From NCBI GenBank assembly GCA_031292385.1, contig JARLHE010000006.1:104376-168375 (forward strand): a DNA stretch of 64,000 nucleotides, written 5' to 3'. Each line of letters opens with the position of its first letter. Position 1 is the stretch's first letter. The notes beneath the pieces were generated by a model, which was given only the letters and a program-made list of their open reading frames with translations, had not been told where the DNA came from and did not search any database. A program made the translations under genes and the position numbers. This document shows, piece by piece, positions 60,053 to 64,000 of this stretch. The DNA is from Oligoflexia bacterium (GTDB lineage: Bacteria; Bdellovibrionota; UBA1018).

Positions 60053-61291
60053 CTACTGAAGCAGTGATTCAAGCTTAGGCTTGTTTATTTTGTAGACCAA
60101 TTTTTTACCGCTCTTCGATTCTTCAACCAGGGCGGCGTCTGTCAGGGCCTTGAGTTCCTGGCGGGCCACCTCTCGAGACATGCCGATCTGTTTTGCATAT
60201 TCTTCGATGCTGACGGTTCTAAAGCGATGCAAAGCCATTCGCTGAAGAAGGCCGATTTGATTCGCAGACAGCGTGATTTTATTCCTGAGCGCATTAATTC
60301 GAAGCAGGTAATCAACTTTCTTAGATACCGCCGTCAGTGCCGAGTGAATTGAGTCTAAACAGAAGTCGATAAAATACGTTACGTCGTAGTCATTCGTCAC
60401 CACTTTCTCGAATGACTTCTCATACTGTTTTCCGTGCTCTTTCAGATATGCGGAAACCGACAGAAGCTGAATGTAGTCCAGGTTATTTTTCATCGCCTTG
60501 AAATAAAACAGGGCCCTCGCGGTTCGGCCATTTCCGTCGAAGAACGGGTGGATATAGGCGATGAAATAATGAACCAAGATCCCTCGAATCAGCGGGTGGA
60601 TATACCTGGGATTCGCCGTTATCAGTCCAATTGTTTCGGCAATCGCCTCTCGGATCGACGCATGTGAAATCCCTTCATGCGGGCCAATAAAAACTTTGCC
60701 ATTACGAAATTTTCCCGAAAAATTCGCATCATCCCCGTCCATCGTATTTTCTGTCACGATCCGATGTAGCTGCAATATAAGATTCTCGGAAACAGGCTCG
60801 GCTCGGTGCTCTTGAACCCAGTTCATCGCTTTGAAGTTATTGAGCAGCATCCACTCGTCTTTGTTTTTTGGCTTCACTCCTGACGCAATCAACTGTTGCG
60901 CTTGTGCACGAGTGCTGTGCGCGCCTTCGTAGATCGCGGAAGTGATCGCTTCTTCGACCGTCGAATTTAGAAAGAAGGCTTCGCGAAAAAGCGCCTGCTG
61001 ATTAATCCGGTTGTAAAGGTCCAAACCAAGACGCTCAATATCGTTGAGCTTGCGGGTTAGACTATCCGAAGGAAAAAACCAGAATTTCTTATCTATGCAG
61101 GGCATGAAAAGCGGTATGGAACCCACTTTTCTATTGATCACTATTTTCCGGGCAATCTCCGTCCAGTCGGACGGAAGCCAGTCTTGCTGCTGAATTCGAT
61201 ATTTTGTCTCGTCGGGAGAGAGATACCGTTCTTGTGTGTACTTCAGCCATGTCGCTGAGTTTAGAAACTCGAACTCGTCTTTCACCCGCAT
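60053..61291 (-). CDS. Fic-domain protein (predicted AMP-transferase)
   Basis: The protein is 412 residues. The Fic core HPFFDGNGRTAR (catalytic His) at about residues 248-259 transfers AMP from ATP to target hydroxyls. The N-terminal inhibitory helix has SAIYEG, the (S/T)xxxE(G/N) motif, at about residues 118-123, so it is self-inhibited (class II). The C-terminus has a winged helix (RTVSIEEYAKQIGMSREVARQELKAL), probably DNA-binding. Neither a toxin nor an antitoxin partner is beside it. Codon and base use are visibly AT-richer than the genes to the left. Confidence 0.92.
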   Translation of the reverse strand: MRVKDEFEFLNSATWLKYTQERYLSPDETKYRIQQQDWLPSDWTEIARKIVINRKVGSIPLFMPCIDKKFWFFPSDSLTRKLNDIERLGLDLYNRINQQALFREAFFLNSTVEEAITSAIYEGAHSTRAQAQQLIASGVKPKNKDEWMLLNNFKAMNWVQEHRAEPVSENLILQLHRIVTENTMDGDDANFSGKFRNGKVFIGPHEGISHASIREAIAETIGLITANPRYIHPLIRGILVHYFIAYIHPFFDGNGRTARALFYFKAMKNNLDYIQLLSVSAYLKEHGKQYEKSFEKVVTNDYDVTYFIDFCLDSIHSALTAVSKKVDYLLRINALRNKITLSANQIGLLQRMALHRFRTVSIEEYAKQIGMSREVARQELKALTDAALVEESKSGKKLVYKINKPKLESLLQ

Positions 61292-61671: not shown

Positions 61672-62184
61672 TCAATTCTTTATACCCGCGTTCTGCTTCA
61701 CATTCGATTCGGAAGCAAGTCCACGAACTTTCGAATCAAGATCATACTCGCGCTCGAATTCCTTTAGGCTCGCGTTATCAATCTCTCTTTTAGCTGCCCG
61801 GTAGTCGGTTTCGGCTATTTTGCCACGATCGCGCATGTCCTCAAGCTTGCCTAAGGCCATCTTTCTGTTTTTCTCAAGGTCCTCGACATAAAAGCTGGAA
61901 GCCTCCCAATTCTTCACCTTTGCTCCCTGATAGCCGGCGGAGGTGTCCCAGCAAATCGAAAGCGGCCACGTCAAGAGGTCGACGACACCCAACCCGATCT
62001 GTCCCGTATAAAATGACCCCACGCCGGGCAGAATCCCGAGCAAAGCGCCGGTCGTCGGATCCTTGGCATGTACCGCTATGCCTTCCCGCTCCCACTTATC
62101 CAAATCACGCTCCTGGATGCTATTGAGCGATGCACAACCAGAGAACACCGCCAGTAACACCGCCACAGCCAACACCTTTTTCAT
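61672..62184 (-). CDS. Predicted lipoprotein, unknown
   Basis: ATG at 62184 with a strong GGAGG upstream gives 170 residues. Lipobox LLAVFSGC at Cys 17. A GALLGILPGVGSFYTGQIGLGVVDLLTWPLSI stretch looks like a glycine-rich membrane-interacting hairpin, and the C-terminal half is a charged coiled coil. No family is recognised. Confidence 0.65.
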   Translation of the reverse strand: MKKVLAVAVLLAVFSGCASLNSIQERDLDKWEREGIAVHAKDPTTGALLGILPGVGSFYTGQIGLGVVDLLTWPLSICWDTSAGYQGAKVKNWEASSFYVEDLEKNRKMALGKLEDMRDRGKIAETDYRAAKREIDNASLKEFEREYDLDSKVRGLASESNVKQNAGIKN

Positions 62185-62189
62185 TACGT

Positions 62190-62756
62190 CCTCCAGGGGG
62201 CGCGAATAACAAGAGCCTGGACGCACAACTTAAGAAGGAGGGGATCGAATACTTTGGCTATCTCCTTCTGGAAAGTCAGCCCATTAACGGCGTTGAACTC
62301 CGGAACAAAGACGGAATTGTTGAAAGAAAGCCCCTCAAGGGCAAAAGAGTCATTTCTTCACAAAATAGCCGGACGATCCCTATTCTCGACAAGGAGTGCT
62401 TCAACATCCTCGCGGAGCTTTGGCTTCAGAAAAAGGAACTGTTGAACAAGCGCGTCTATGGCACTGACCCGAAGAATTACCTGCTCTTCGAGGGTCTGAA
62501 TAAGTTCACCTTCGGAAATCTTCTCAGATCGGTTTGTCGTCGTCATAAAATCGGCCCGTATACGCCACATTGTTGCCGTCATACGTTTGCTACAGAATTT
62601 ACGGGAATGGTCATGGGGAATATTTTCTTGTGCCAGCTCGTGCTAGGTCATGCGGATACGAGCACTACGAGAAAATACATCCATCTTTGGGAGCAGGTTC
62701 AAAAGGATCTGAAGAGCGAGGCGCAGTTGAGAGAAGGGATCTCACTGATTGAGTGA
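62190..62756 (+). pseudogene. 5'-truncated tyrosine recombinase (integrase) fragment
   Basis: The open frame encodes about 190 residues that match only the C-terminal catalytic half of phage-type integrases: NSRTIPI, then KIGPYTPHCCRHTFATEF (HxxR), LVLGHADTSTTRKYIHLW (H...Y nucleophile). The first catalytic Arg segment, normally ~60 residues before NSRTIPI, is missing. Upstream codons in frame belong to the antisense of the lipoprotein gene. No start or ribosome site exists at the junction. It is a remnant of an integrated element. Confidence 0.8.
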
Positions 62757-62814
62757 TCATTTTCAATCTGGGTTTTCCTTTACTAAAAATACAATCACCC
62801 AATAAGCTTCAACC

Positions 62815-63327
62815 ATGACGTGCAATCGAAGTGACATTCTTAGAATTCTAAATAACTCTAGGGCTCTTCTAGAGGAGGCTCAGCACCTTTTCGATCATGG
62901 GTTTGAGCGCCGAGCGGGCTTTCTAGCTCTCGCGTCTCTCGAAGAGCTTTTAAAAGCCATGTCTATCGAGCAATCCCAAGGCGATCATCTTTTAACCTCT
63001 CACAAACACAAGCTGCGGCTAATGAATGATGGAATGGCTTCGGTGTTTTCTGAGTTACTTAAAACCAAATTCACTGAATTGGCCTCAGCGAACAACGAAG
63101 AGACTTTATTTTCCCCTGAACAGGCTCAAATTATCGACGAATATTGGCACAAGCTGATGACAGATCTCAGTAAGATCTTCCAATTTGATAAGCTAAGACA
63201 GCACTTCTTGTATGAAGATCTTTCACCACCTAAAGAGGTCATTCAATTCAGAGACTCTATCAATAGCAGCCTAGCGAAGTTCGTTCTCCAAGCGGCTCAT
63301 GTACTTCACAAAGCAGCGGAAGAATGA
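62815..63327 (+). CDS. AbiV-like HEPN-family protein
   Basis: The protein is 170 residues, all-helical. The pattern SRALLEEAQHLFDHGFERRAGFLALASLEELLKAMSI and later HLLTSHKHKLRLM resembles AbiV-type abortive-infection proteins of the HEPN superfamily. Its base composition is AT-rich. It lies between the integrase remnant and the predicted retron RNA. It could be the effector of that retron or an independent defence gene; the RNase motif R-x4-6-H of active HEPN toxins is not clear. Confidence 0.6.
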   Translation: MTCNRSDILRILNNSRALLEEAQHLFDHGFERRAGFLALASLEELLKAMSIEQSQGDHLLTSHKHKLRLMNDGMASVFSELLKTKFTELASANNEETLFSPEQAQIIDEYWHKLMTDLSKIFQFDKLRQHFLYEDLSPPKEVIQFRDSINSSLAKFVLQAAHVLHKAAEE

Positions 63328-63445
63328 GTTTGCCCTGTTAAACAATTACAGAAAAGCGCCCCGTCAATCACGCGCTCGATGCCATAGCCAAAATTGACGT
63401 TATTACAAATGGCAAAGATCAAACCTGATTTAGCGCTCTGTGAAA

Positions 63446-63474
63446 TTGCAAACTTCACCGTCATGCGCTATTTT
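63446..63474 (+). promoter_or_regulatory. Sigma-70-like promoter of the predicted retron RNA
   Basis: TTGCAA (63446-63451), 17 bp, then TATTTT (63469-63474): 4/6 and 4/6 to the consensus at ideal spacing. Transcription would start near 63481, at the first inverted repeat of the ncRNA. Confidence 0.5.
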
Positions 63475-63477
63475 GAC

Positions 63478-63644
63478 TTGGGGCTTGTTTCAAAATAATT
63501 TATTCTTGCTGTTGAAACTGCGGCACTTGAAGACGCTGGTAGGGGGCTTTTTACCTTACAGTAACACCTTACATCCTTTCGGCTATTGGCGATTTGGATG
63601 TCCTCGGCTTCGGGTAGGATAGAATTGAACGGAACAAGCCCCAA
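63478..63644 (+). ncRNA. Predicted retron msr-msd RNA
   Basis: TTGGGGCTTGTT (63478-63489) and its exact complement AACAAGCCCCAA (63633-63644) are the a1/a2 repeats that fold the ends of a retron RNA together. They enclose ~140 nt with several hairpins: GTTTCAA/TTGAAAC (63487-63493 with a partner ~20 nt later), GGTA/TACC, and ACATCC (63571-63576) with GGATGT (63596-63601). The reverse transcriptase starts 4 bp after a2, as in known retrons. The branch G cannot be assigned with certainty; G63487 is the best candidate. The 150 bp between the AbiV-like stop and this RNA hold only the promoter. Confidence 0.65.
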
Positions 63645-63647
63645 CCT

Positions 63648-64000
63648 ATGCCAAGCGAGAAACCTTTCAGAACAAACTACATGCAACAAAAGCTCAGCGA
63701 CTTGGAAGACCTGAGCGACATTGCCAAACTGCTCTCAACAACACCTCAAAAAATTGGGTTCATTTTATATCGCAGCCCCAATATTCGTGAAAGCCAATAC
63801 ACGGAATATACAATTCCAAAGAAGACGGGCGGTCAAAGAACAATAGCTGCTCCAGATAAGGCACTACTAATTTTACAGAGCCGCCTAAATCGAATTCTTC
63901 AGAAAGCCTACATTTCCCGCCCGTCAGCGCACGCCTTTGTTGAAGACAGGTCCATAAAGACCAACGCTCTTGTTCACCAACGGAGAAGGTTCGTCCTAAA
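63648..64000 (+). CDS. Retron-type reverse transcriptase (C-terminus beyond window)
   Basis: The N-terminal 117 residues are visible. They contain the RT0-RT1 blocks of retron and defence reverse transcriptases: QYTEYTIPKKTGGQRTIAAP, ILQSRLNRIL, then SAHAFVEDRSIKTNALVHQRR before the strand leading to motif A. The catalytic xxDD motif and the VTG or Y-motif lie beyond 64000. The ATG at 63648 is directly after the a2 repeat, a hallmark of retrons. A non-retron defence RT is the alternative. Confidence 0.8.
   Translation, partial: MPSEKPFRTNYMQQKLSDLEDLSDIAKLLSTTPQKIGFILYRSPNIRESQYTEYTIPKKTGGQRTIAAPDKALLILQSRLNRILQKAYISRPSAHAFVEDRSIKTNALVHQRRRFVL

Follow-up and report, generated by a model that had tools for sequence, protein, structure and literature searches.

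A probable divergent RT-TOPRIM fusion retron split over two contigs of an Oligoflexia genome, and its AbiV-family neighbour

The 64,000-nt window analysed here, from an Oligoflexia bacterium, stops at the exact end of contig C27 (G000:C27:104376-168375; last base 168375). Its right end carries on the plus strand, from left to right, a tyrosine-recombinase remnant, an AbiV-family gene, a gap of 150 bp, a stretch of 167 nt, 3 nt and the open frame of a reverse transcriptase (RT). The remnant (62130..62756, + strand), taken as one island edge, corresponds to the C-terminal catalytic half of the enzyme, with a PF00589 match (1.5e-8) that covers only positions 63-168 of 172. A SoFic-like Fic protein is encoded on the minus strand (60053..61291; PF02661 4.8e-14; PADLOC SoFic 140 bits) and is a probable neighbour in the same island. 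Both genes had been named in a preliminary description of this DNA and are borne out by these profile matches; its coordinates and its description of the features are right, apart from a promoter discussed below.

The RT frame is cut by the contig end, and a second contig of this genome, C60, has its probable continuation at one end. Outside the window, this contig carries a tRNA-Asn (L011:11911-11985), a DUF2971 protein with a weak PDC-S31 match (L011:12452-13318) and a protein kinase (Pkinase; L011:13503-14675; best PADLOC models mad6 and Stk2) convergent with the RT gene. The kinase and DUF2971 genes, located between the retron and the tRNA-Asn, are likely additional island genes. Both contigs show a decrease of the GC content from about 0.56 to 0.40-0.48 toward their ends, so disposed that the low-GC region extends from near the tRNA-Asn across the retron to the AbiV gene. 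A search for att repeats shared by the tRNA-Asn and the integrase side gave short matches at chance level only. Considering this fall in GC, the kinase and DUF2971 genes on the C60 side and the integrase remnant and Fic gene on the window side, the low-GC setting from the integrase remnant to the tRNA-Asn is consistent with a tRNA-linked defence island, in support of the setting proposed by the preliminary description.

The stretch directly 5' of the RT corresponds to a putative retron ncRNA gene (msr-msd) of 167 nt from a1 to a2 (63478..63644, + strand), recognised by an inverted repeat, by its fold and by equivalent stems at homologous loci. The a1 (63478..63491) and a2 (63631..63644) arms, read on the plus strand, form 14 pairs including one G·U, built on the 12-bp repeat noticed earlier, which is indeed perfect (63478-63489 / 63633-63644, 12/12 complementary), and the ATG of the RT stands at 63648, 3 nt past the a2 arm. 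Of 628 length-matched control stretches from the RT loci, 7 had a stem of at least 13 Watson-Crick pairs with a span of 90-260 nt. Stems of at least 12 such pairs were found just 5' of the RT in 57 of 86 rows versus 15/628 controls, the 86 rows including the window, L085 twice and close relatives, and leaving aside five loci with insufficient upstream sequence (L074, L075, L088, L111 and L113). At L085, the retron RT is split into two frames, 3' of an inverted repeat of 23 pairs, which could reflect a frameshift or decay.

The 171-nt RNA is predicted to fold at -60.5 kcal/mol, while shuffled sequences give -43.1 (sd 3.96; z -4.39; 0/200 shuffles as good). It comprises a hairpin with an apical GT-N7-GCG (63506..63526, + strand), assigned to the msr and common to the two nearest RT relatives, from Herpetosiphon (L014) and Picosynechococcus (L015), in which the paired bases of the lower stem are different; the hairpin is additionally present in L053, L054, L076 and L080. 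Its descriptor, drawn partly from sequences that it later matched, retrieved 7 of the 86 rows, window included, for 1.6 expected by chance. The nearest relatives belong to other phyla and possess both this msr hairpin and stems formed by a1 and a2, so that the stretch upstream of the RT looks like a genuine msr-msd. The RT, the a1/a2 repeats and the hairpin common to relatives thus sustain the retron call of the preliminary description. The first base past the 14-pair stem is an A, and G63487, which lies inside a1, is a candidate for the branching G of the ncRNA, to which the msDNA of a retron is joined 2',5'. Rfam gave no match up to an E-value of 5 in 63330-63720. The matching promoter that had been claimed is not confirmed, as 0 sigma-70-like sites were found in 62700-63700, where 1.5 were expected by chance.

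The window contains the 5' part of the RT gene (63648..64000, + strand), 117 codons (residues 1-117) that remain open to the contig end, for which the best NCBIfam model is retron_Ec67_fus and the best PADLOC models are RT-Protease_XI, RT-TIR_XII and RT-Toprim_I-C. An RVT_1 search of the same genome returned one match over the cut-off, at the very end of contig C60, and no second one elsewhere. This match is a frame of 452 aa on the minus strand (L011:16159-14801), which begins with DLEDFFPS and runs to a stop. In all of the eight homologues aligned end to end (L006, L007, L009, L010, L014, L015, L019 and L020), exactly two residues separate the position of residue 117 from that of the first C60 residue; in a ninth homologue, L008, the match to the window half stops at residue 110. 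The last two bases of the window (AA) are compatible with the N of N-x-D-L-E-D-F-F. From this constant two-residue spacing, we infer that C27 and C60 carry a single gene of about 571 codons, interrupted by about 4 missing bases. The joined protein would have the YxDD and the N-x-D-L-x-D-F-F region of retron-clade RTs, the N-x pair falling in the assembly gap.

The C60 half could instead come from a different RT gene, in which case the window RT would belong to another retron type with a C-terminus not known. No sequence covers the junction, and the window half taken alone scores best with RT-Protease_XI models, as this alternative would have it. It is nevertheless extremely unlikely in view of the exact fit in 8/8 homologues, of a genome that holds no other RT half and of the drop in GC content toward both contig ends.

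The C60 half contains a YADD motif followed by a TOPRIM domain with TEGKTD, FDRD and VELL, so that the xxDD motif and the C-terminal part which the preliminary description had proposed to look for beyond the contig end are both present, the latter as a fused domain. Over residues 1-451 of this half, the PADLOC RT-Toprim_I-C model PDLC02968 scores 377.6 bits, the RT-TIR_XII models coming third with 344.6 bits. Six residues of Eco2 that were mutated according to PMC12405507 (E374, D378, D460, D462, S513 and E515) correspond here to E363, D367, D429, D431, S468 and E470. The Eco2 numbering was transferred by means of a stand-in, the 586-aa relative L062, which has the letters of that paper at all six places; K562 of the same source has no placement, as L062 has a D there. 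In the PDB, chains of retron Ec67 give the best sequence matches, confined to the RT part. For the relative L051, an AlphaFold2 model (16 sequences, mean pLDDT 75.3) matches Eco2 9lm3_A over the whole length (Z 28.3, 444 aligned) with an rmsd of 8.9, better evidence for the order of the domains than for their precise geometry, and among the structure-search rows for this model only the Eco2 matches cover the TOPRIM part.

With its missing half bearing YADD and the catalytic residues of a fused TOPRIM, the window RT would therefore belong to an RT-TOPRIM retron, with the effector in the same protein. Conditional on the adjacency of C27 and C60, the C-terminal TOPRIM fused to the RT agrees with type I-C; the RT does not group with the Ec67 clade, and the best PADLOC models for this subgroup (PDLC02965/02968) are still named I-C. 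The type label is soft, unlike the architecture, because PADLOC places RT-TIR_XII first for L051 (580.4) and L019 (441.0), both of which bear a TOPRIM, while L014 is filed under I-C. The best match of L051:4662-6386 and L019:4851-6677 to RT-TIR_XII despite their TOPRIM residues suggests that proteins with two kinds of effector may go under this one label.

The RT was placed in a phylogeny, as the preliminary description had advised, using the 61 RT domain rows that remained of 89 after thinning at 80% identity; the joined window RT was kept, and the broken RT of L085 and the window fragment were omitted. The nearest rows are Picosynechococcus L015 (47% identity) and Herpetosiphon L014, and the window RT lies outside a clade of 32 Ec67-like rows (100/100 support). 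The FDRD motif of the TOPRIM is shared by the window, L014, L019 and L051, in place of DND. A clade uniting the window, L014, L015, L051 and L019, named after the tree had been seen, is absent from it yet not rejected (p-AU 0.425). The gene is absent from 57/57 other relatives, and the RT-TOPRIM model matches 3 of the 368 genomes of the phylum, this one included. Other homologous RTs, L006-L010, found in Mitsuaria/Roseateles-type and Bacteroidota contigs, are extended at the N-terminus by at least about 125 residues and are preceded by two large genes in a similar layout; the L006 RT scores 584.5 bits with PADLOC RT_XIII.

The gene upstream of the ncRNA (62815..63327, + strand) is intact and encodes an AbiV-family HEPN protein of 170 aa, as the preliminary description had recognised, with scores above the cut-offs of PF18728 HEPN_AbiV (38.5 bits for 27.1) and TIGR04498 (38.2 bits for 27). 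Its R128, in LR..xLY, is invariant in the 6 rows of the AbiV alignment, and H63, in (S/F)H..K, is by reading conserved in the window, L021, L023, L024, L025 and L030. PMC3710099 describes for AbiV in general an alternative H that replaces the canonical one. A single-sequence structure model of the protein is all-helical, with a mean pLDDT of 53.0, too poor for fold comparison. The closest homologue (41% identity) is found in a genome of the same family, next to genes which, from reading their sequences, encode a heavy-metal ATPase and a sigma factor. Searches for AbiV homologues gave no tblastn match in plasmids and none confirmed in viral contigs.

The preliminary description had proposed this locus as possibly a new retron type with the AbiV-like protein as effector, and had expected RT homologues to share both the a1/a2 repeats and the AbiV-like neighbour. 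The repeats are indeed found at homologues, but the neighbour is not: AbiV is beside none of the 83 homologous RT loci (out of 89) that extend 1 kb or more upstream, nor beside any of the 44 RTs with TOPRIM motifs (of 47) having the same upstream coverage. A profile of six AbiV proteins, by which each of the six was recovered in a leave-one-out test (E 4e-9 to 3e-26), matched only the window's own gene among 3288 ORFs, drawn from 93 RT loci and from the right end of the window; these 93 loci comprise unrelated RTs (L047-L050) besides the 89 homologues. Conversely, AbiV occurs in 10/368 genomes of the phylum, own genome included, and a homologous RT was found at 0/9 of the other AbiV loci within up to 1.5 kb on each side. 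An RVT_1 search of these nine whole genomes located an RT on the contig of AbiV once only, 14 kb away. This RT (G253:C59; L047:8174-9232) is of YMDD type, does not count as a retron homologue at E 1e-8 and is separated from AbiV by a transposase-like gene. The proposal of a new retron type with an AbiV effector is thus rejected by these neighbourhood tests and by the fused TOPRIM on C60.

AbiV could still be a working part of the retron, as a second HEPN RNase effector restrained by the RT-msDNA complex in the manner of the HEPN of type IX Kva2. PMC13405049 describes the type IX operon as a HEPN protein, a winged-helix protein, the ncRNA and the RT, the HEPN having a sequence-distant active site with H64 and R122, an arrangement which H63 and R128 resemble in the light of what PMC3710099 reports for AbiV generally. 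Here AbiV is on the same strand as the ncRNA, 150 bp from it, and no plus-strand terminator-like site was found in between, so that their co-transcription is possible. The same interval holds no winged-helix gene, the fit to the type IX model is far worse (RT_IX 107.5 versus RT-Toprim_I-C 377.6 bits), the AbiV profile matches no type IX HEPN chain in PDB at E <=10, AbiV homologues exist without an RT and the RT already bears its own effector. Together with the vacant RT loci, these observations make a functional part for AbiV improbable. We likewise give little credence, and slightly less, to a two-RNase retron of the RT-TOPRIM kind that would have recruited an AbiV-type HEPN RNase, co-transcribed with the ncRNA and neutralised by the same msDNA complex, as a second effector or back-up killer; it is kept in consideration for the common strand, the missing terminator, the type IX precedent and H63/R128, and if true it would parallel the type IX HEPN, whose active site, like that of AbiV, is a non-canonical H + R. 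The literature consulted in part that mentions both retrons and AbiV reports no retron-AbiV pair. AbiV is most likely an independent neighbour gene sharing the island with the retron; both genes look to have been acquired separately, and we read their adjacency as due to chance.

Altogether, an RT-TOPRIM fusion retron (PADLOC type I-C, Eco2/Ec67-like, outside the Ec67 clade), split by the assembly over two contigs and separate from AbiV, is very probably what lies at this locus. Two gene halves, YADD and TOPRIM catalytic residues, and, directly 5' of the RT, a putative ncRNA gene bounded by a1/a2 and containing an msr hairpin can be read from the DNA itself. The adjoining integrase remnant would suit an old island whose retron has decayed and lost its function. 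Such decay is very improbable considering that neither gene half carries a stop or frameshift and that YADD, the TOPRIM catalytic residues, the msr hairpin and the pairing of a1 with a2 are all retained. By analogy with Eco2, as presented in PMC12405507, the RT would use the branching G of the ncRNA as its primer to produce msDNA, which by homology would form with the RT-TOPRIM protein a self-inhibited, inactive complex. A phage product damaging or binding the msDNA would then free the TOPRIM RNase, whose cleavage of RNA could halt the growth of the infected cell and abort the infection. The AbiV-like HEPN would most likely be a separate abortive-infection gene of the same island.

To the RT-TOPRIM retrons of the FDRD subgroup this locus adds a divergent example, whose msr hairpin is conserved between bacterial phyla. 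It helps define the ncRNA of this subgroup, of which no solved structure occurs among the PDB chains matched. It also illustrates that an assembly break can mask a fused effector and make a neighbour gene pass for a new one.

Compared with the AbiV family (PF18728/TIGR04498; structures 9bj5 and 9bj7), the window's member has a profile score over the cut-off, the EE.xK and LR..xLY motifs and the alternative conserved H, but it adjoins a retron and is divergent, with 38 bits only. The type IX retron Kva2 likewise has a HEPN gene with a non-canonical H + R active site, according to PMC13405049, but it differs by another RT type, a winged-helix gene, a separate effector and a HEPN without detectable sequence relation to AbiV. 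Closer is the RT-TOPRIM of Herpetosiphon aurantiacus pHAU01 (Haur_5150, L014), with 41-42% identity over the whole protein, FDRD and the same class of msr hairpin, whereas it has no AbiV and lies next to a gene for a TPR protein and others annotated as hypothetical. Retron Eco2 (Ec67; PDB 9i2f/9lm3/9s1f) shares the single RT-TOPRIM protein, the a1/a2-bounded ncRNA directly 5' and the catalytic E/D/DxD/S/E residues. The present system differs from it by FDRD instead of DND, an RT outside the Ec67-like clade with 33% identity to the Eco2-like L062, a 167-nt ncRNA, another msr hairpin and the AbiV gene upstream. A retron with an RNase TOPRIM fused to its RT is thus a known system, and what is new here is most likely a divergent FDRD example of it rather than a new retron type.
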